DNA of 45,394 nt, from contig JAFGKG010000077.1 of assembly GCA_016928715.1 (NCBI GenBank), forward strand, positions 1-45,394, read 5' to 3'. The translations under genes and the position numbers were made by a program. Below, piece by piece: positions 2,623 through 36,348 of the stretch; position 1 is the first letter of the stretch; each line of letters opens with the position of its first letter. A model generated the notes under the pieces. It had not been told where the DNA came from, did not search any database, and saw only the letters and a program-made list of their open reading frames with translations. This DNA is from Chloroflexia bacterium (GTDB lineage: Bacteria > Chloroflexota > Chloroflexia > DTKN01).

Positions 2623-2645
2623 GCCCAAAAGGGGAGTGTGTGGCG

Positions 2646-3374
2646 ATGGCTGTCAGTGGCAATCTACGCGATATGACCTTGACCACCCTGATCTCGGTCA
2701 ACTGTAACGAGGGGAATCAGGCCCTGCTGCGGCTGCGGCGGGGCGAGGAGGAGGCGCAGATCTATTTTGACGAGGGCAATATCGTGCACATGGTCCTGGA
2801 CGACCGCGAGGGTGAGGAGGTGATCCATGAACTGCTAGCCTGGGAGGACGCGCAGTTCGAGTTAGAGATGGGTGTAGCAGCGCCGGCCCGTACGGTGCAG
2901 ACGCTCTGGTCCAACCTGGTGTTGGGCGGCATGCAGATGATCGACGAGGCCGAGCTGACGGAAGAAATGTTAGCAGAAATAGAAATGGAGGAAGATCTGA
3001 TGGCAAATCTACAGGAAGTACTGCGGGAAATGGGCTCTTTGATCCCTGGCTTTATCGCCACCGACGTGGTGGGCATGGATGGCCTATCGATTGGAGGGTA
3101 CGCGGCGGATCCGCACTTTGACGGCGAGGCGGCCAGCGCCCAGTTCGCGCTGGTGATGAAGCTGGTGCAGCGGACGGTCGGGGAACTCGCCGGCGGCGAG
3201 GTGGAGGACAACCTGGTGACGACGGACAGGATCTATATCCTCACCCGTTTTCTGGGGGATGGGTCCTATTACCTGGGGATGGCTATAGACAAGGAGCAGG
3301 CGACCCTGGGCAACGTGCGCTTGGTATCGCGGCGCTTTGCCGATCGCATTTGGGCGGCTATCCCCAAGTTCTAG
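2646..3374 (+). CDS. DUF4388 (PATAN-like) domain fused to a Roadblock/LC7 domain
   Basis: A 242-residue, two-domain protein. Residues about 1-100 show the DUF4388/PATAN pattern: GNLRDMTLTTLISV, then a small domain with IYFDEGNIVHMVLDD, as found in many bacterial GTPase and two-component partners. After an acidic stretch, residues about 119-242 form a Roadblock domain starting MANLQEVLREMGSLIPGFIATDVVG. The ATG at 2646 follows GGGGAG at 9 nt; a GTG at 2640 is too close to that site. The Roadblock half has its own GGAGG and ATG (see 2987-3002), so a shorter product may also be made. Its role is probably to bind or regulate the adjacent MglA-like GTPase. Confidence 0.88.
   Translation: MAVSGNLRDMTLTTLISVNCNEGNQALLRLRRGEEEAQIYFDEGNIVHMVLDDREGEEVIHELLAWEDAQFELEMGVAAPARTVQTLWSNLVLGGMQMIDEAELTEEMLAEIEMEEDLMANLQEVLREMGSLIPGFIATDVVGMDGLSIGGYAADPHFDGEAASAQFALVMKLVQRTVGELAGGEVEDNLVTTDRIYILTRFLGDGSYYLGMAIDKEQATLGNVRLVSRRFADRIWAAIPKF
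2987..3002 (+). promoter_or_regulatory. Internal ribosome binding site and in-frame ATG within the DUF4388-Roadblock gene
   Basis: GGAGGA at 2987-2992 is followed 7 nt later by an in-frame ATG at 3000, exactly where the Roadblock domain begins (MANLQEVLREM). The bases around it are more AT-rich than the rest of the gene, as is usual around true starts. Either a second, 124-residue Roadblock protein is translated, or this is a relic of two genes that fused. Confidence 0.5.
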
Positions 3375-3419
3375 ATTGAGAAGGCTGTACGGAATACGCC
3401 ATACGAAAGGAGATGAGTG

Positions 3420-3896
3420 ATGGCTACCGAAGAACAGAAGCAACAGGCGCGTTTGCAATTGCTCGGCACCGTTCTCGCTGGCTTTATCACCGGTTTGTAC
3501 AAGCTTTTCGGTGATGGAGCCATGGCCACCGTGGACACGATTGGCCAGGACGTTCTGAAGGATATGGAGCACAAGCTGGGGCTTGAAATCCACGGCGAGG
3601 ATCCCCAGGATATCCTGACCGAGCTGGAGCGCCTGATGATCGACGAGTTCGGTCTGCTCCAGGACGCCAAGTTGGTCATTGAGGGTGGCAAGATCGCGCT
3701 GAGCTGCGAGAAATGCATGCTCTGGAACCTCTCGCGCACTTTGCAAGAGGCTGAAGTGCCGCTCTACAGCTGTGTGCCGATGATGATGGCTTCGACGGCG
3801 CTGCGCAAGCGTCTGCGCAAAAAGGCCAAATTCATGGGTATTACGCAGGATCAGGAAAATCACATCTGCAACATTGAGTTTCGCCTGCTGGATTGA
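3420..3896 (+). CDS. Unassigned cassette protein with four cysteines
   Basis: A 158-residue protein I cannot assign with confidence. The first 30 residues could form a hydrophobic helix (LLGTVLAGFITGLYKLF). A helical middle (about 40-80) is followed by a small beta region with cysteines at 96, 99, 118 and 150, arranged as CEKC, then YSC, then HIC. The layout, with helices followed by a Cys-containing alpha/beta end, recalls small sensory domains such as V4R or the methanogen output domains, but this is only an impression. The Cys set could bind a metal. The start is the ATG at 3420, 7 nt after AAGGAG; a GTG lies one codon earlier. It is the last gene before a strong hairpin and is probably co-transcribed with the GTPase. 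Confidence 0.75.
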   Translation: MATEEQKQQARLQLLGTVLAGFITGLYKLFGDGAMATVDTIGQDVLKDMEHKLGLEIHGEDPQDILTELERLMIDEFGLLQDAKLVIEGGKIALSCEKCMLWNLSRTLQEAEVPLYSCVPMMMASTALRKRLRKKAKFMGITQDQENHICNIEFRLLD

Positions 3897-3914
3897 CCCA
3901 GCGCTGTTGCTAGG

Positions 3915-3950
3915 AAGGGGTGGGGGCGCTGTTCTGCCCCTACCCCTTTT
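3915..3950 (+). terminator. Terminator-like hairpin inside the signalling cassette
   Basis: AAGGGGTGGGGGC pairs with GCCCCTACCCCTT (one wobble) around an 8-nt loop and is followed by TTTT and then a T-rich stretch. It stands between the Cys-containing protein and the amidoligase. I see no clear promoter after it, so it may act as a partial terminator that lowers expression of the three downstream genes relative to the GTPase module. Confidence 0.65.
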
Positions 3951-3973: not shown

Positions 3974-5287
3974 ATGAAGCAGCCCATCCTTTTCCGTCGG
4001 GACGACGTGCTCGACCACGAGCAGGCCAGGTACTGGAAGGACCTGCTCTATCGCACCCTCAAGATCGGTACTGAGGTCGAGTTTGCCATGCCCAAGGGCG
4101 TGCGCAAGAACGATCTGATGCCCCTCTTGTGGGAGGCATTGCAGCCGACCAAGGATCTGGGCCATCTGGGGCGTTACGGTGTGCTGGACGTGATCAGCGA
4201 GCACTGCGGCATCGAGATCCAGGTCATTGGCCGGCAGCCCTACTATGCCGCTCTGCGGCAGCAGTACCAGGAGTTATTCGCCCTGCTGCCGGAGGGCATT
4301 CGCGCTCGCCCCACCTGCGGCCTGCACTACCACGTGCTGGGGGTGGGCTTGTGCGAGGCCGTGCCCGAAATCGTGCTGGCTAATATCTGGAACCTGACCC
4401 GGCGCTATGCGCCGGAGCTGCGCTTTCTGAGCAGCGCAGGGGAGGGCATGGCCGCCCTCTGCCGGCGGCGCAACCATACCAGCCACCTGGAGATGGTCAA
4501 GCATTCTCCGGCCCTGCACCGCATGGCCCAGATACAGCAGTTCCTGAAGGAGAGCCGGCAGGTACCGGAACACCAGAACTTTATGAATCTGGAGCACCTG
4601 CGTTTTGACGAACCGGGGGACGTCGTTGACTTTCACCTGGAGTTTCGCTTTCCCGACGCCGACCTGTCGCCGACCTCGATTGTGGCCAAGACCTTTCTTT
4701 TCCTGGCGTTGGTGCTCAAGTCGGTCGACATGAGCCAGTACGGGGTGATCCACGTGGGCAAGATTCGGGAGTGGCGGCGCAAGATCGAACTCTTGGACCT
4801 CTTGAGCAATAACGAGGGTAAACTGGCTACCAGTGACACCAGTGGCATCGGGCCGGACGAGATCGAGGAACTGCGGGTGGGGGCGCGGGAACTGCTGGAA
4901 CTCTTGAAGCCGGCCTTTGTGCGCTTGGCGCGAGTGGCAGGGGACAGCAGCGAGGAGCACCCGGCTTTTGAGGTGCTGTCGCTGCTGGCCGAGACGCCGA
5001 TCTCGCTGCTGCGCAGCCGTGGGCGGGACTGGGTCGAGGTGGAGGCTCTGCTGGCGGAGCGGGCCGAAACGCCGGTCGGCCTGCTGGACCCGACGGAACT
5101 CAAGTTAATGCGCTGCATCGAGCTGGCCGAATTGAGCGGCTGTCCCGGCCTGGAGTCCTGGAAGTGGCAGGTCGCGCAGGAGCTGTTCCTGACGCCGAGA
5201 GAGTTGGAGCAGCGCCTGGACAAGTTGGACCGGCTGCGGGGGCTGCGTTGGGACCTGCAGTTGGGCACAATGGTGTTCACGAGCTAA
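3974..5287 (+). CDS. Putative amidoligase of the glutamine-synthetase-like fold (Amidoligase_2 type)
   Basis: A 437-residue protein. Motifs fit the ATP-dependent carboxylate-amine ligases of the GS-like fold: the metal-binding GTEVEF at residues 32-37, GIEIQV at 79-84, CGLHYHV at 115-121, and HLEFRFPD at 221-228. In that superfamily the N-terminal Glu pair, the central His pair and the late Glu/Arg bind metal and nucleotide. The last ~180 residues are helical and charged and are not part of the catalytic core as I know it. Amidoligases of this family join an amine or ammonia to a carboxylate; the substrate here is unknown. The next gene is a free glutaminase domain that could supply ammonia. 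The ATG at 3974 lacks a strong ribosome binding site, so the start is less certain than the family call. Confidence 0.72.
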   Translation: MKQPILFRRDDVLDHEQARYWKDLLYRTLKIGTEVEFAMPKGVRKNDLMPLLWEALQPTKDLGHLGRYGVLDVISEHCGIEIQVIGRQPYYAALRQQYQELFALLPEGIRARPTCGLHYHVLGVGLCEAVPEIVLANIWNLTRRYAPELRFLSSAGEGMAALCRRRNHTSHLEMVKHSPALHRMAQIQQFLKESRQVPEHQNFMNLEHLRFDEPGDVVDFHLEFRFPDADLSPTSIVAKTFLFLALVLKSVDMSQYGVIHVGKIREWRRKIELLDLLSNNEGKLATSDTSGIGPDEIEELRVGARELLELLKPAFVRLARVAGDSSEEHPAFEVLSLLAETPISLLRSRGRDWVEVEALLAERAETPVGLLDPTELKLMRCIELAELSGCPGLESWKWQVAQELFLTPRELEQRLDKLDRLRGLRWDLQLGTMVFTS

Positions 5288-5299
5288 AGGAGAGCGAGC

Positions 5300-6082
5300 G
5301 TGTGCGGATTAGCCGGCATCCTGCTACACCCGCAGGAGCGCACGCCGGAGCAGTGGCAGCAGTTGCGAGAGCTGTTCAGCCAGACCCTGCTCTACAACCA
5401 GGAGCGGGGTCGGGAGGCCTCCGGGGTGGCCCTGATCCAGACGGACGGCGACTTTCGCCTGTTCAAGCAGCCGCTGGCGGCTTCCGATCTGCTGCAGACG
5501 GCGCGTTATCGGGAGATACTGGCCCAATTGGGACCGCGGACGAGTTGTCTGTTGGGACATACGCGCATGCCGACCAAGGGCAGCCGTTGGAACAATGCCA
5601 ACAATCACCCCTTGCTGGTGGGGCGAGTGCTGGGGGTACACAACGGCGTGATCCAGAACGACGACGACCTCTTTGCCCGTCTCCAACTGCCCCGGCGTGG
5701 GCAGGTGGACAGCGAGATTATCTTTCGGCTGTTGAACGGCATCGAGTCCTATCCTCAGAACGGGCAGTTGCCGCAGGCGGTGCAGCAGGTGGCGCAGCAG
5801 CTCGACGGACCCTTTGCCACGCTTTCGGTGGATTTGCGCCGTCCCCGGGAGATTCTGGTGCTCAAGCACCTGCGGCCACTGTGCTTTCATTATGAGGCCG
5901 AGCTTCAGGCGGTCTTTTTTTCCTCGCGCTACCTGTTTTTGCGCAAGGCTTTTGGGCGTTCGGTGCTGACGGAGGCTTTGGATTCGGACCATGGCTTTGT
6001 TTTTGACGCGGAGAGTTTACCGCAGTGCGGGGGTCGGCCGCGGCATAACTTTGCCCTGGAGTGGCCGCAAGAGAGCGAATAG
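5300..6082 (+). CDS. Standalone class II glutamine amidotransferase (Ntn hydrolase) domain
   Basis: A 260-residue protein that consists only of the glutaminase domain. The catalytic Cys2 follows the initiator (MCGLAGIL). Other family signatures are RG at 36-37 with ASGVAL, GHTRMPT at 86-92, NNHPL at 101-105, the oxyanion-hole HNG at 114-116 and VDSE with Asp137. In PurF, GlmS and AsnB this domain releases ammonia from glutamine for an attached synthase. No synthase is attached here, so a separate partner is expected, and the amidoligase just upstream is the natural candidate (12-nt gap). The start is a GTG at 5300 after AAGGAGAG; removal of the initiator would expose Cys2 as the nucleophile. 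Similar lone domains can also act as gamma-glutamyl hydrolases. Confidence 0.87.
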   Translation: MCGLAGILLHPQERTPEQWQQLRELFSQTLLYNQERGREASGVALIQTDGDFRLFKQPLAASDLLQTARYREILAQLGPRTSCLLGHTRMPTKGSRWNNANNHPLLVGRVLGVHNGVIQNDDDLFARLQLPRRGQVDSEIIFRLLNGIESYPQNGQLPQAVQQVAQQLDGPFATLSVDLRRPREILVLKHLRPLCFHYEAELQAVFFSSRYLFLRKAFGRSVLTEALDSDHGFVFDAESLPQCGGRPRHNFALEWPQESE

Positions 6083-6093
6083 GAGCAGGACGC

Positions 6094-6438
6094 ATGAGTA
6101 CAATAGAACGCCGACAGTATCCCCGCTCCCAGGATTGGCACCTGGTCTCTTTTACCCATTACGATGAGCAGGGGGAGGTGGACGACCAGGGACTGGCCCG
6201 CACATTGGATATGAGCCGTGGAGGGCTGCTGCTCGAGATGACCTGGGCGCTGCCGTTGGGCAGTTGGCTGGATCTAGAGTTGCAGTTGCAGGATGAGATT
6301 CTCTGCTTGCAGAGCCAGGTGAGCCACGTGGAGGAGCGGCCCAACGGCCGTTTCGCTGTGGGGGTGGCCTTTCTGGATGTGTCGGAAGAGATTTTGGAGC
6401 GGATCGAGCACCAGATCCGTTGGTTGATGGGGCAGTAA
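6094..6438 (+). CDS. PilZ domain protein
   Basis: A 114-residue single-domain protein. It carries both cyclic-di-GMP binding motifs of PilZ: RRQYPR near residue 6 (RxxxR) and DMSRGGLLLEM near residue 39 (D/NxSxxG). The rest is the expected six-stranded barrel with a C-terminal helix. It should bind cyclic-di-GMP and pass the signal to a partner protein. The start is the ATG at 6094, 8 nt after AGGAG and 11 nt after the preceding stop, so it is in the same transcript as the glutaminase. It is the last gene of the cassette; a convergent gene follows. Its presence suggests that the amidoligase branch or the GTPase module responds to cyclic-di-GMP. Confidence 0.92.
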   Translation: MSTIERRQYPRSQDWHLVSFTHYDEQGEVDDQGLARTLDMSRGGLLLEMTWALPLGSWLDLELQLQDEILCLQSQVSHVEERPNGRFAVGVAFLDVSEEILERIEHQIRWLMGQ

Positions 6439-6528: not shown

Positions 6529-9500
6529 TCAGTCCAGCCCCTGGCTCAACACTTGCCCGGCCACTTCTTCCAGGCGCTGCCCCTGGCCGCGGGCCAGGGC
6601 GGCCTCGATCTCTGCTGAGGAGAGTTGCTCGTGCAAATAGTCCAGGGTGGGCTGCAGGTTGAGCTTGGTGTCGATGCGCAGGGAGGGGTGCTGCAGCACC
6701 AGGCCCAGGAACTCCAGGGCTCGTTCCATCCGGCCGGTGCGGGCCAGGATGCTGGCCAGGCCCCCCAAAGATTCCAATACGATGGGGGTGACCCGGCCGG
6801 CCGTGGCCCCCCGTAGGGCGCGATAGAAATAGGACTTGGCACGGTCATAGTCCTCCTGGACGACGGCGACGAGGCCCAAGTTGGCCAGCGTGTTGGCGGT
6901 GTTCTGGGGATGGTGCAGTTTTTCAAAGAGATCCAGCGCCTGCTCGTAATAATCGCGTGCGGTGGGATAATCCTGCTGGCTCCAGGCCAGCACGCCCAGG
7001 TTATTGAGGACGGCGGCCGTGCCCCGGTGGTCGCCCAGGCCGCGGTACAGTTCCAGGCTTTGCAGGAGGAATTTGTGGGCCGCCTCAGGGGCATGCTCGC
7101 GGGTGGCGACTGTGGCCAGCCCGTTATAGGCCAGGGCCAGGAGGCCCTGGTCGCCGATCTCCTGGCTTACAGCCAGGCCCTGGTCCAGATAGGAGCGAGC
7201 CTGCTCATAGTTGCCCAGGCGGTATTCCAGCCAACCCAGGTCAAGCAGGTTTTGGGCCTCTCCAGCGCGGCGCCCCAATTGGCGGTTCAGCTTTAATCCT
7301 TCCTCCAGCCACTGGCGAGATTCGTCAAAGTCACCCTGTTCGCGGGCGATCAGACCCAACAGGAACAGTACTTCGATGATTTCATCGGATCGGTCTGCCT
7401 GGCGGGCCAGGGCCAGGCTTTCCTCTAGCCGGCGCCGGGCCCCGGCATAGTTGCGCAGGCGATAGAGCGCGTTTCCGGCCTGCATCAAGAGGGGGATGCG
7501 GGCCGAGCTTTGGCGGGGTAGGGAGGCCAGGGCTCGCTCCAAAAAGATCTGGGCTTCCCGAAAGGCATAGACCCGCGCGGCCTGTTCGCCGGCCTGGCTC
7601 AGGTACTTGGCCGCCAGGCCGGGTTGGCGGGCCTGATCCATGTGTTCGGCCCAGAGGCCGGCGTAGGTGTTGGCCCGCTCCTCGTTCTGTTCCATCAGCC
7701 AGCGTGCGGCGCGTGTGTGGTAGCGCCGGGCGAGCTCTGGGGAGAGGGCTTGCCAGGCCGCCTGGCGTATTTGGCCGTGTTTGAAAACGTATTCAGTTTG
7801 TCCGCGCAGGATCGAACCCTCTTGGCGGCGGATCAGGTCACGCTGTTCCAGCGCTGCCAGGACAGAGTCAACGGGCGCGTGCTCTTGGCCAGGGAACTCG
7901 AGGACTTGAGACCAAAAAGTGAGCCCCAGGACGGCGGCGCGCTGCAGTACGTCCTGTTGGTCAGCCGGCAGATGGTCAAAGCGGGCCTGGACAACCTCTT
8001 CCAGGCTGGGGGGGATGGGCTGCGGGCTTGTGCCCTGCTCGACGATCAAGCGGGCGATTTCCTCCAGGTAGAGGGGGTTGCCCCGGGCCTGTGCGAGGAT
8101 GGCCGTGATTTTGTCCTCGCCCGGCCTGTTCAGGGCGTTTAAGCGGCTCTCGAATAAATGGCGGCTGTCCTGGTCGGTGAGGGGTGACAGGTCCAGGCGG
8201 CTGTACCAGGGCGATCCCTGGGCCGTGCGCAGGAGGGCTTGGGTGGTTTCGCCGGCCTGTTCCCAGTGGGGGTCGCGCTGCAGAAAGGCCGGTCGGGCCG
8301 TACAGACGACCAGGATGGGGCGGTCGGCCAGGCCCTCGGCCAGTCGTTTGATGGCCTGGAGCGAACTCTCGTCGGCGCGGTGCAGGTCTTCGAGCAGGAT
8401 GAGCAGGGGCTGCTGGGTGGACAGTGCCTGCCAATAGTCGCTGATGGCGAGCAGGGCCTGATCGCGCAGCCGGTCCGTTTCGTCCAGGGGGCTGGTGGGC
8501 TGGGGGCCGAGGCCGGTCTGGAAGCCGAGCAAATGGCCGATCAGGTGGACGTATTCCATGGCATCCACCTCTTGGATCGGGCCGGCGATGCCGCGGGCTA
8601 GTTTATGGCGGGCCAGTTCTGGGGGGTCGCTCTCGCGGATGTGGTGGGCGTAGGCAAAGAGGTTGCGCAGCAGGGCGTAGGGCAGATATGCCCCGCCCGG
8701 CTGGGCCCGGAACTTGAGGTAGGGGCGGGGTGACCGTTCGGCCCAGAGGTCAAACTCGTCCAGCAGGCGGGATTTGCCCAGGCCGGCTTCGCCGACGATG
8801 GTGACGATCCAGCAGCGCCCCTCTTCCCACAGGGCTTGGAAGGCTTCCTGCAGATGCTGCAGCTCTTCGTCGCGCCCCAGCAGGGGAGTTTCCTCCCCTT
8901 CGACGCGGTGGATAGGGCGGCGGAAGGTCCAGGGCTGAACCTGATAGATGGGCTTGTCCACGTTGCTATCCGCGATGGAGGGGGGGAACCGGGGCTGCAG
9001 GTCGAACCGTCCGCGGACGAGATCGGCCAGGGGGGCCGAGATGAGCATAGTATCGGCGAGGGCAGCCTGCTGCAACAGGCCGGCGACCTGGGTGATGGCC
9101 GCAGCCTCTTGAGGAGGGCCGCTGTGCAGGCCAATTTGGAGAGTGCTTTGGGATGCTTGCCCTGCAAGGGCAGTTTCCTGGCCGGCGGCGAGTATGGCCA
9201 GCCCGGTCCGGATGGCCTGTTGGGGGGCCTCTATTAGCGAGCTTGCGGGCTCCCATTGGGCGGTCCAGTTGTTGCCCGACCCTGCTTGGAATTGCCCCTG
9301 CTGCGCGGCAATGATGCTTTTCAAGCGCGCTTCTAGGAGGTCAATTGTGGGCGCGTTGGGGTCCGCTAATCCGGCCTGGAGCACGACCACGTTTTGGTAG
9401 GAACGCAGCCGGGTCAATTGCTCCCGCAGGGGCGCCAGTTCGGGCTCGACGGCGGCATCCCCCATAGCAAAACGCCGCTGTTCCAGGGACTCGATGGCGG

Positions 9501-32190: not shown

Positions 32191-35100
32191 CTAGTTGCTA
32201 TGGTTCTTTAGGACCAGGGGCAGGCTGATCCAGTAACCAAGGACGTTAAGGCTGGTTTCCTCCGTAAAGGTGGCCGGGCCGACCTGGTCCGCTGCTATGG
32301 TCATGCCCAGATACACGGAACGCACACCGAGCGGGGGTGAGGGATCCACCCCTACTTGCATGAGAATCGTACCGCTCTGGCCCCCCAAAAGTACTCCCAG
32401 GTTCCAGACACAGTAGTCGGGGGCGATGTTGTTGGGGAAGCACGAGGCGGGCTCTGGAACGATACTGACGATACTGTTGGCATAGGGGTCAAAGTTGATT
32501 GTGAGCACGGTGTTGGTGGCGGCGATGCCAAGGTTTTCATATTGTACGGTGTAGCCAATTGTGTTACCAGGGTCCACGGGATCCATGTCGTCTGTGGCCT
32601 CAATAGTCAACTGCGGCACAAAGAGCCCGGTGCGTACAGTGGGGCCGGAGAAGGGCACGACCTGGTCACAGCTAATCGAGACGTTGTTTGTGATGGCATA
32701 TACCCCTGCCGGTACAGGCTGGTTGACCTCAACCTCCACTTGTACCATGGCGTTTTCTGAGAAGGGCAGGGTGCCCAGGTTCCAGCGATTGTTGCCCTCG
32801 TCCGGCATCGGATTCGCGCTGACAAAAGTGACGTTAGGATCATAAGTGTCCTCCAGCCACAGGTTGGTAGCGGGAACCAGGCCCGTGTTGCTCACATGGA
32901 TCGTATAGCTGATGGTTTGGCCGGTTTCGACGTTGGCGGGATAGCCCTCTTGGAAAATGGACAGGTAGGGCATGTTAACCCGCGTAGATTCGATCTCCTC
33001 GACAATGCCGAGGGCATCGCCTTCTCCATCGATGGCCGCGTAGTTAAAGAGATAGAGGTCTTCTTGGTCCAGGGGAGACTTGACCTGGAAGGTGATGTCG
33101 ATCCAGTAGTCGTTGCTGTTGCCATTGCCCAAAAGCAGGCTTTTGCCCCAGACAATGGTGCGGTTTTCCAGGTCGAGGTCAATGATAAAGATCGAGGGGT
33201 CGCTGCGTGTTTCACCGACGTAGCTCAGGTTGGCATCAAAGGTGTCGGTGATGAGTACATTGGTCGCTGTATACTCGGCACTGGTGTTGCCAAACTCCAA
33301 TCGATAGACCAGGGTATCCCCGGGGTTGATGGGGTCATAGTCGCCGCCCGCGTGTTCATCCAGCTTGTCCAGGCACAAGCCCAGTACCATAAAGGGCTCG
33401 CCATTGTTAGGATTGGGGATCGGGTCGTCGGCGAAGGCTCCGTCCCAATCCTCATAGTGGCGTTCATAGGGGTTCTCGTCGCCGGGCTGGCTGCTGTAGG
33501 CCCGGATGCGGGCCGTGTTGGTCAGCCAGTTGCCCGGAACGGCCGCCGGTTCAATGATCGTGTCATAGTTGAGGATGATGGTCCCTCCGGCGGGGATCTC
33601 CCCCAGCGTCCAGGTCACTACACCGGTCGCTCCAACCGTGGGTTCGTGGACCAGGTTACCGGGATCACTCGGAGTCAGATAGGAGTCGACGACTGCGATT
33701 CCCGGGGGCAGTTCATCTAGGATTGTGATATCGTAGGCCGAGCCAAAGCCGATGTTGTGGAGCCGCACGGCAAAGCGTACGGTTTGACCGACCTCAAAAT
33801 ATTCGGTGGGCGTGTCCCGTCGGTATTTGTCAAAGTCAGTGGCCAGATAGGGCTGCACAATCCAGGTCTGGGCTTTCAGATTTTTGTCCAGGCAGTGGAG
33901 AGGGGATCCAGGTGCTTCGGAAGTGTACCAGCAGGAGTTCAAGTTGTTTTCGGCCAAGCGACTGCTGACCAGGTCGCCACGACCGGCGATGTAAGTGTTA
34001 TCGTGGTGGCAATCGGTGCCGCTGATCACGGCCTGGTACTGGATGACGACGACCATCGGTTCGGCTTGGGAATTAGCGAGAGTCTCCAGTCCCCACAGGA
34101 GCATTTCTCGCCGGTCGCCGTCGGGATCGCAGATCGTCATCGGTTCGGTGATGATCTCAACTTGATCGTCGACAACCTGGAGGGTGCCGGATATGTAATG
34201 GTAGCCTAGCGGGAGCAGATCCTCGTAGGAAGGACGATACATAACCATCCCCGGGTTTACAGTGATGACGAGGGAGTAATCGGCGATGTCGCCAATGGCC
34301 AAATCAGTTTCTGTGGAGTCCAAGCGTTTCTCTAGCTCAAAGCCGCCAATGACCACTTGTTGGGCGGTGTAGGGGCTGTCCAGGTAGTCCCCCTCGTTTG
34401 CCACTTCCCCCTCAAAAGTGGTGTAGCGGGCCTGGGCTGTGCTGACCAGGGGCATGCCGGCGCCCAGGATGGCTGGCAGCGAGGTAGTGATGCTAAAGTT
34501 CATCGCCGTGGTACTGATGGGCATGGTCAGGGTCCAGTGCAGCAGGGTGCCCACACCAGGGATGGTTTCGGTCCAGTCGGGAGTAGGGATGGCACTTTCG
34601 AAGATCAGTTCAGGGGAAAGCGTGTTTGTGAGAAGGACCTCGTGAGCATTGGGATGTCCGACCCCCTCGATGCGGTTGCGCAGATGTAGGACGTAGTTGA
34701 GATTGGCCCCGCCCTGGAATTCGTCACCGGAGAAAAAGTGGGTAAAATAGGAGCCACTGCTGGCGTTCTGGTAACGCAGGTCCGGGCGGACAAAGCGCAC
34801 ACTGACATCTTCATTGCTTTGAGTGTCTCGATAGCGTAGATAAGGGTGCTGATTGTCCACCGGCTCATCGGGTTGGTCGGACCAGCGGATCAGGGGGGTG
34901 ATATCGAGCAAGCTGGCGTGTGCAATCTCGCCGCTGCCGTTGGGCAAAAAGTTATACTGATCCACCCAGGCGACAAGCTTGTAGGTCCGGGAAACCGCTT
35001 GGGCTTCCGTATTGATGATGGGGGGGCGATTCGTCCACTCCAATTCGGTATGGCGGCCATTGGGACGCCATACATCCTGGTCGTTGGGCTCTATGGTAAC

Positions 35101-36348
35101 GTTTGGTTCAATGCTGGGGTATTCCATGTGGTCGTAGTGGAGCCCGTCCTCCAAAAAGATGCGCACGGTGTGGCTGTAGATGATGAGTCCCTGGGGAACG
35201 GTATAGTGTACGGTGATGGTGACATATTCGCCGGCCATTGCCTGCAGATCGTTGTTGTTGGGGGGATATTCGGGGGAGTACTGGATTTTGGCGGACTCGA
35301 TGTTTTTCATATAGGCTTCGGTCGTGCGTTGTAGATCATAGATCCGCTCGCCATCGCAGGCGCCGGGGCAGGAGGAACGGCGCAGGTCGGCCTTGTGGTA
35401 GATCTGATCGTGAGCGACGCTGCCGGTTCCCGGCAGTGTGGCATAGATCTCCATGTTTTCGCTGGCCCCGACGTCCAGGCTGTCTAGATACCAGTAGAGA
35501 TGGTTACCCACGCGAGTGGGCGATATAGGACCACTATAGCCCACAAAATCTGTCCCCTCTGGCATGGTGTTCGTAATGTAGAGGTTATAGGCTGGGCCGG
35601 CATAGTTTACATTGTTGTTTTGCAGAGTCAGCGTCCAAGTGACCAGGCTTCCTGGATCCAATTCTTGGTTGGCCGGGGGAATCTGGGTCATGTTGAAAGT
35701 AAAGTTGTGTGGTTGGATCAACTGTGTGATGTGGATAGCGGGTGGAGTGTAGGATCCGCCGCCGTCCCAATAGAGCACGGCGGTGTTGTAGGCTTGGCGG
35801 TTGGTGTTGCCATTGTTGTCAAAGTAGATTAGGGCCGAATAACTCACCTCGTAGACATAGTTAGCGCCCGAGGTGTTGTTGATGTCGGCCAGGTTCCAGA
35901 CCAGTTCTGGCCGGCCTGCCTCCGGATAGGTGATCTCGGGTTCAACTGGGGCTACCGACGGTGTCTCTGGGGTGACCGCAATGGGGCCTTCCAAAGTTGA
36001 AGTGATGATTTCGGCCGGGAGGTAGATGGGAGTTCCCTCCGGCTCGCTGAAAATGTCCTCCAGGCTTACATTGGTGATTGTCTGTCCAGCGGGGATGGTG
36101 TAGCGCAGGGTATAGTCAATGACTTCGCCATAACTCGCCTCGCCATTCGGTGAAAAGTCAGAGGCCTCGAACTTTTGCAGGGTCACATCCTGCTGGACGC
36201 TCTGTTGGGCTGGGGCGGCTTGGATTGGCTGGGCCGGGATGAGCCCCCCCGGCCCCAGTATCGTGCCGACCAGCATTGTCAAAATAAGCCACAAGGAGAG
36301 TATACGGGGGCTTTGGCGTGGCATTTGCTGCGTACGCGACTTGTTCAT
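32191..36348 (-). CDS. Very large exported protein with DUF11 repeats
   Basis: A 1385-residue protein with a signal peptide: basic start (MNKSRTQQMPRQSPR), hydrophobic core ILSLWLILTMLVGTILG, and likely cleavage near QAAPAQQ. The body is built of beta-sandwich DUF11-type domains, each with a pattern like PGDTLVYRLEFGNTS, ATNVLITDTFD, WNLGTL and then a VEVNQPVPAG strand. At least the last four are clear tandem copies. The C-terminus reads GYWISLPLVLKNHSN, a 'LPLVLK' tail that I associate with exported proteins of Chloroflexota. No LPXTG motif or C-terminal membrane helix is present. It is probably surface-attached or secreted and adhesive. The ATG follows AAGGAGG and a promoter; it leads the five-gene minus-strand run. 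Confidence 0.88.
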   Translation of the reverse strand: MNKSRTQQMPRQSPRILSLWLILTMLVGTILGPGGLIPAQPIQAAPAQQSVQQDVTLQKFEASDFSPNGEASYGEVIDYTLRYTIPAGQTITNVSLEDIFSEPEGTPIYLPAEIITSTLEGPIAVTPETPSVAPVEPEITYPEAGRPELVWNLADINNTSGANYVYEVSYSALIYFDNNGNTNRQAYNTAVLYWDGGGSYTPPAIHITQLIQPHNFTFNMTQIPPANQELDPGSLVTWTLTLQNNNVNYAGPAYNLYITNTMPEGTDFVGYSGPISPTRVGNHLYWYLDSLDVGASENMEIYATLPGTGSVAHDQIYHKADLRRSSCPGACDGERIYDLQRTTEAYMKNIESAKIQYSPEYPPNNNDLQAMAGEYVTITVHYTVPQGLIIYSHTVRIFLEDGLHYDHMEYPSIEPNVTIEPNDQDVWRPNGRHTELEWTNRPPIINTEAQAVSRTYKLVAWVDQYNFLPNGSGEIAHASLLDITPLIRWSDQPDEPVDNQHPYLRYRDTQSNEDVSVRFVRPDLRYQNASSGSYFTHFFSGDEFQGGANLNYVLHLRNRIEGVGHPNAHEVLLTNTLSPELIFESAIPTPDWTETIPGVGTLLHWTLTMPISTTAMNFSITTSLPAILGAGMPLVSTAQARYTTFEGEVANEGDYLDSPYTAQQVVIGGFELEKRLDSTETDLAIGDIADYSLVITVNPGMVMYRPSYEDLLPLGYHYISGTLQVVDDQVEIITEPMTICDPDGDRREMLLWGLETLANSQAEPMVVVIQYQAVISGTDCHHDNTYIAGRGDLVSSRLAENNLNSCWYTSEAPGSPLHCLDKNLKAQTWIVQPYLATDFDKYRRDTPTEYFEVGQTVRFAVRLHNIGFGSAYDITILDELPPGIAVVDSYLTPSDPGNLVHEPTVGATGVVTWTLGEIPAGGTIILNYDTIIEPAAVPGNWLTNTARIRAYSSQPGDENPYERHYEDWDGAFADDPIPNPNNGEPFMVLGLCLDKLDEHAGGDYDPINPGDTLVYRLEFGNTSAEYTATNVLITDTFDANLSYVGETRSDPSIFIIDLDLENRTIVWGKSLLLGNGNSNDYWIDITFQVKSPLDQEDLYLFNYAAIDGEGDALGIVEEIESTRVNMPYLSIFQEGYPANVETGQTISYTIHVSNTGLVPATNLWLEDTYDPNVTFVSANPMPDEGNNRWNLGTLPFSENAMVQVEVEVNQPVPAGVYAITNNVSISCDQVVPFSGPTVRTGLFVPQLTIEATDDMDPVDPGNTIGYTVQYENLGIAATNTVLTINFDPYANSIVSIVPEPASCFPNNIAPDYCVWNLGVLLGGQSGTILMQVGVDPSPPLGVRSVYLGMTIAADQVGPATFTEETSLNVLGYWISLPLVLKNHSN

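Follow-up and report, generated by a model that had tools for sequence, protein, structure and literature searches.

In a Chloroflexia bacterium, two adjacent genes for a predicted amide ligase (LIG) and a glutaminase (GAT) probably encode a two-subunit, glutamine-dependent amidating enzyme that serves a signalling module of the MglA-MglB/Roadblock-DUF4388 type. We would put the probability of this reading at about 0.6. The genes lie in a stretch of 45,394 nucleotides (contig JAFGKG010000077.1), here called the window. The most informative fact about them is their company, i.e., genes for MglA, Roadblock and a TRAPPC3-like protein. This context was absent from the earlier note on the same DNA.

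The genes of the run are all on the plus strand. The first one (197-1552) encodes a response-regulator receiver domain (Pfam Response_reg, 3.3e-23) followed by a Roadblock/MglB-like segment, residues ~138-294, which can be aligned to MglB-like genes of homologous loci. Next come an MglB-like Roadblock/LC7 protein (1488-2021; Pfam Robl_LC7, 1.5e-8; NCBIfam MglB, 1.5e-17, under that model's own cut-off) and an MglA-like small GTPase of the Ras family (2029-2622; Pfam Arf, 3.7e-8), the start of which is inferred, the mechanical reading frame beginning at 1975. The GTPase adjoins the MglB-type Roadblock protein and, by this adjacency, belongs to the MglA/MglB signalling systems; its relatives, 50-65% identical, are found in the clusters of loci L002, L003, L004, L011, L012 and L028. 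A DUF4388 protein (2640-3374; Pfam DUF4388, 2.6e-15) follows, whose C-terminal half gave no match in a Pfam search, and then a small protein, g5 (3417-3896), whose structural model has a predicted fold of the TRAPPC3/Bet3 - V4R - H-NOX type. LIG (3974-5287) has 437 amino acids and an ATG start; GAT (5300-6082) has 260 amino acids and a GTG start (MCGLAG...). The final gene of the run encodes a PilZ-domain protein (6094-6438; Pfam PilZ, 1.1e-11). No homologue of it was seen beside GAT in the other loci examined, where the neighbours differ, and PilZ was dropped as a member of the module. Elsewhere in the window, on the minus strand (32191-36348), an open reading frame of 1385 amino acids contains many repeated segments which, judged by eye, are DUF11-like and adhesin-type.

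LIG itself escapes routine annotation. Its sequence has no match in Pfam, NCBIfam, PHROGs or the sequences of the PDB, and a LIG profile run against the PDB sequences yielded chance matches only. The earlier note had assigned it to the ligases of glutamine synthetase (GS)-like fold by the motifs EVEF, GLHYH and HLEFR. They are present in the reading frame where they had been placed, as G32-T-E34-V-E36, G116-L-H118-Y-H120 and H221-L-E223-F-R225, or GxExE, HxH and ExR in general terms. The fold assignment, too, holds. An AlphaFold2 model built from 11 sequences reached a mean pLDDT of 74 and a pTM of 0.77, three of the five models being poor. When it was compared with the PDB by Foldseek, glutamine synthetases came first (E down to 1.3e-5, probability 1.00), and GmaS and Dop ranked lower. 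The TM-scores of these matches are low (0.3-0.38), which limits the placement to the level of the superfamily. Against viral proteins, the Foldseek list is rich in entries called 'amidoligase enzyme'. Profile-profile comparison by hhalign with nine proteins of the Amidoligase_2 type gave 70.4% (E 3.9e-5) for the chromosomal LIG sequences alone and 96.9% (E 1.6e-10, 210 columns) when the phage homologues were included. The alignment superimposes GxExE, a second Glu, HxH and ExR; a control with the unrelated GAT scored 0.4%.

The search with family models that the earlier note had proposed came out differently for the two proteins. GAT is recognised outright by GATase_6 (PF13522; 59.1 bits vs a curated cut-off of 27), whereas the Amidoligase_2 model (PF12224) does not detect LIG. 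The window LIG gave no match at the curated cut-off, just one of 11 LIG homologues appeared at all (E 0.082), and a whole-genome scan with this model found none. Plain membership in Amidoligase_2 was ruled out by this negative result, and membership in COOH-NH2_lig (PF14395) by an hhalign value of 2.3%. Being invisible to the Amidoligase_2 profile, LIG is best described, from its profiles and its model, as a separate sister branch of Amidoligase_2 within the GS-like superfamily, outside that model's cut-off.

Homologous loci were found in 12 other genomes: Anaerolineae and other Chloroflexi, Acidobacteria, two 'Deltaproteobacteria' and one member of the Thermoanaerobaculales. Most of these are metagenome bins, whose assignment to a phylum may be incorrect in some cases; the genome of Longilinea comes from an isolate. 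The locus is rare. LIG occurs in 2 of 400 genomes of the phylum (the sample comprises ~400 species), and in an acidobacterial sample the locus turned up in 3 of 347 genomes, all already among the known loci. Eleven full-length chromosomal LIG sequences, that of the window included, align end to end, and the relatives are 58-73% identical to the window protein. The LIG gene of one locus (L012, 8001-9292) is spread over two overlapping frames, owing either to a frameshift or to a sequencing error. Within the chromosomal alignment (11 sequences) the motifs are invariant save for their variable x positions. A more demanding comparison includes six distant homologues of 25-30% identity, of which five are encoded on viral contigs and the sixth on a phage-like one. 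G32, E34, E36, E81, H118, H120, H221, E223 and R225 are invariant in all 17 sequences. Glu34, Glu36, His118 and Glu223, the residues on which the earlier note had staked its assignment, are among them. The invariance both in the chromosomal homologues and at such low identity means that the motifs are more than chance.

The C-terminal part of LIG, from about residue 268 on, had been proposed to be helical and to bind a partner or the substrate. The model indeed shows helices between 268 and 421. The idea of a specific partner site fares less well. P330, L335, A339, P342, R347, W353 and W396 are nearly or fully invariant, phages included. Since no g5 accompanies the phage LIGs in the loci examined, this conservation is not specific to signalling and speaks against a special adaptor to signalling partners. 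More likely, the C-terminus belongs to a shared core or would serve GAT docking or the common chemistry.

The identity of GAT poses fewer problems. Apart from the match to GATase_6 (6e-16), phmmer retrieved from the PDB the glutaminase domain of GlmS (3.3e-11). C2, R89, N115, G116 and D137 are invariant in nine sequences; we take them to be the Cys, Arg, Asn-Gly and Asp of class-II glutaminases. GAT is, as had been claimed, a glutaminase domain of its own with an N-terminal nucleophile, Cys2.

The genes of GAT and LIG keep together. The gap between them is 12 nt in the window; in nearly all chromosomal loci GAT is the next gene after LIG, and in ten measured loci it starts 1-53 nt downstream of LIG. 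A whole-genome search detected a GAT of the same clade in all 12 other LIG genomes except that of Longilinea; in two loci (L004, L013) the gene is broken by a contig end or located at another one. Across pairs of taxa, the distances in LIG and those in GAT are correlated with r = 0.88 (Mantel p 0.0002, 11 taxa), as compared to 0.45 for g5, 0.40 for DUF4388 and 0.28 for MglA. With the same 7 taxa throughout, the values are 0.79 for GAT vs 0.28 for g5 and 0.44 for DUF4388; on 10 taxa, the LIG-GAT correlation is 0.89 vs 0.41. These correlations are based on identities and are crude. Still, it is the pattern that an obligate enzyme pair in a looser neighbourhood should look like, which falls short of proof of a complex, and it supports the view of GAT as a dedicated partner of LIG. 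Longilinea arvoryzae breaks the rule: downstream of its LIG the genes run on the opposite strand, no paired GAT is seen, and the glutaminase domains of this genome are distant ones of the GlmS/PurF type only. The earlier proposal that the glutaminase feeds its neighbour has thus to be divided: a dedicated pairing is borne out by adjacency and joint evolution, but GAT is not strictly required.

The neighbourhood is conserved as well. g5 lies directly upstream of LIG wherever the locus comprises upstream sequence, save for an acidobacterial one (L008) in which a beta-carbonic anhydrase (7212-7802) is placed between them. The order g5-LIG-GAT is the same in three phyla, with intact genes of 55-66% mean identity. 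Roadblock, MglA or DUF4388 genes are present in most of the loci that are long enough to show them. Two loci (L008, L009) have a MinD/ParA-like ATPase downstream of GAT. Among 251 genomes sampled, g5 was found in two, the same two that are known to have LIG. DUF4388, in contrast, is present in 63 of 121 genomes from the phylum. Compared with this figure, the pair and g5 are rare and supplement a signalling cluster of a common kind. A chromosomal clade that extends over three phyla, is always accompanied by g5 and is usually embedded in an MglA-MglB/Roadblock-DUF4388 cluster looks new.

Between g5 and LIG the window has a strong hairpin of 16 pairs followed by a T-rich stretch (3913-3950, plus strand), terminator-like or attenuator-like by its sequence. 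The intergenic region folds with -36.1 kcal/mol (z -2.8), yet the region has no excess of terminator-like matches over shuffled sequences (2 found vs 3.0 expected). Strong hairpins of unrelated sequence occupy the same place at L002, L003, L004, L007, L010, L011 and L012. An Rfam search of the window revealed no known RNA or riboswitch upstream of LIG. The structure possibly acts as an attenuator or processing site, and g5 and LIG may therefore be expressed unequally.

The distant relatives of LIG lead to phages. Two rounds of profile scans of viral contigs disclosed distant LIG homologues in 11 distinct contigs, most of them 79-298 kb long. GAT is nearby in all 11 and follows LIG directly in seven. 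The common layout is COOH-NH2_lig - LIG - GAT - larger GAT - COOH-NH2_lig, in one contig (L066) continued by a RimK-like ATP-grasp enzyme. More broadly, cassettes with at least three amide ligases and two glutaminases were seen in phage contigs of 45-298 kb (L064-L068, L071-L079); in L066-L068, the ExE motif of LIG is followed by an insert rich in Cys. A phage-like contig of a genome assembly (G877; L063, 3122-9851) encodes a single-strand binding protein, a clamp-loader-like ATPase and a helicase-like gene, and has at its end three genes for amide ligases (two of COOH-NH2_lig, one of LIG); a single-sequence query with the L063 ligase detected no further relatives in viral contigs. The LIGs of phages are likewise unannotated, and this ligase branch of large phages, which shares its cassettes with COOH-NH2 ligases and additional glutaminases, looks new as well. 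No g5 homologue was seen in the phage loci examined, and a tblastn search of catalogued phage records found no LIG-GAT pair. The tree of LIG unites the chromosomal members in a single clade (100/98), with the phage sequences next to it; the chromosomal GATs, too, are one clade (100/99), whose nearest phage group the GAT tree does not settle. With an outgroup that is too distant and with long branches, the trees give no direction of transfer.

How the pair might work can be sketched by analogy to the GS and GAT families. GAT would hydrolyse glutamine by means of its N-terminal Cys, and the ammonia would be handed over to LIG. With ATP and Mg2+, bound by E34, E36, E81 and E223, LIG would convert a carboxylate to an acyl phosphate, and the product would be a primary amide; an amide formed with a different amine is possible as well. 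To judge from the fixed neighbourhood alone, the enzyme would work for the signalling cluster around it, the likeliest carriers of its effect being g5 and the adjoining GTPase module. The location in a cluster of a Ras-like GTPase suggests that the GTPase system uses amide-bond modification. Tentatively, one may go further and imagine a Ras-like GTPase/Roadblock system with a glutamine-dependent amide ligase of its own, obtained from or shared with large phages. It might amidate g5, the GTPase or the Roadblock protein, or produce an amide signal for the protein with the TRAPPC3 fold, which would amount to a control of a small GTPase by reversible amidation or by an amide ligand.

The role of g5 in this scheme is a guess. 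Sequence searches do not help: none of 12 members has a Pfam match, V4R and TRAPP included, and there is no sequence match in the PDB. The model, however, is good (pLDDT 90), and Foldseek returned 13 PDB matches with E<=0.001 (1e-4 to 1e-3; TM 0.4-0.58). They are mostly Bet3/TRAPP and H-NOX proteins, comprising the subunits TRAPPC1-C6/Bet3, an Asgard TRAPPC3, H-NOX, the phenol sensors PoxR/MopR/DmpR and one BcsD. As a pocket protein of the TRAPPC3/V4R type, g5 might hold the amide product or itself be what the enzyme modifies; its distances follow those of LIG less closely than the distances of GAT do, so that it need not be the substrate. The same fold lends some colour to a doubtful variant, in which no protein is modified and LIG and GAT together produce an amidated small molecule, e.g., an amide of an amino acid, a peptide or a fatty acid, that is sensed by the g5 pocket. 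PoxR/MopR/DmpR, H-NOX and Bet3 share their fold with g5 as domains that bind small molecules or lipids, and the combination of several ligases with a RimK-like ATP-grasp enzyme in the phage cassettes is typical of small-peptide synthesis. The chromosomal cluster, however, contains no metabolite-building genes beyond the pair.

GS-like folds include non-ligases, Dop among them, and Dop is among the Foldseek matches of LIG. LIG could accordingly be a deamidase or hydrolase, or a dead ligase, with GAT regulating it or having another client. We consider this very unlikely, as all residues of the metal- and ATP-site type are kept down to 25% identity and a glutaminase partner suits a ligase, not a hydrolase. 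Least of all do we believe that the pair is the remnant of a recently captured phage cassette, adjacent to the GTPase cluster by accident and idle therein: the distant relatives do reside mostly in phage contigs and the pair is rare in the phylum, but the constant gene order, integrity and identity of g5-LIG-GAT in three phyla, and a window without other phage genes alongside, contradict it.

Pfam's Amidoligase_2 entry mentions neighbourhoods of amidoligases and GATases, and so, reportedly, does Iyer et al. 2009, the founding paper on them. Separate genes for amidoligase and glutaminase have been described in LUZ24-like phages (PMC3890496), gp18/gp19 of LUZ24 being such a split pair, and one Chloroflexota genome (locus L017) has a true Amidoligase_2-GATase pair. 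The split organisation noticed in the window is therefore real but, taken alone, not new. These pairs resemble LIG-GAT in combining a GS-like ligase with GxExE, HxH and ExR and a separate class-II glutaminase (GATase_6); LIG differs in being missed by PF12224, in its own helical C-terminus and in the GTPase/Roadblock cluster. The phiEco32-type COOH-NH2 ligase cassettes of large phages (PF14395, GATase and RimK-like ATP-grasp) harbour distant LIG homologues with adjoining glutaminases, but LIG is remote from the COOH-NH2_lig profile, and the chromosomal copies consist of LIG and GAT only. In Staphylococcus aureus, a separate ligase and glutaminase, MurT and GatD, also cooperate in a glutamine-dependent amidation (PMC3267633, PMC5871853); MurT is Mur-ligase-like and GatD is a different type of glutaminase, and no kinship is claimed. 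The MglA/MglB polarity systems and the actinobacterial conservons (PMC4316618, PMC13343842) likewise unite a small Ras-like GTPase and Roadblock proteins in one cluster, to which g5, LIG and GAT are here added. Asgard archaea have GTPase, Roadblock and TRAPPC3 proteins, the latter being kin to bacterial V4R ligand-binding domains (PMC10933270). The same three kinds are here found side by side in a bacterium, but g5 resembles Asgard TRAPPC3 by predicted fold alone (TM about 0.55), which does not imply a TRAPP-like action. The literature collection searched contained no paper that deals with 'amidoligase' together with MglA or Roadblock; within this collection, the ligase branch and its GTPase context appear not to have been described before.

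In bacteria, exchange factors and GAPs of the Roadblock kind control Ras-like GTPases of the MglA type. If our reading is true, an amide ligase dedicated to such a GTPase and encoded next to it would extend this control by covalent chemistry or by an amide ligand. The LIG branch is not covered by Pfam, NCBIfam or PHROGs and also marks the multi-ligase cassettes of phages, so that knowing what LIG acts on would be of use for the signalling cluster and the phage cassettes alike. Work could well begin with the chromosomal version, which, with one ligase and one glutaminase, is far simpler than its phage counterparts. Finally, the predicted TRAPPC3-like fold of g5, next to a bacterial GTPase and Roadblock proteins, is interesting with regard to how GTPase regulators arose.
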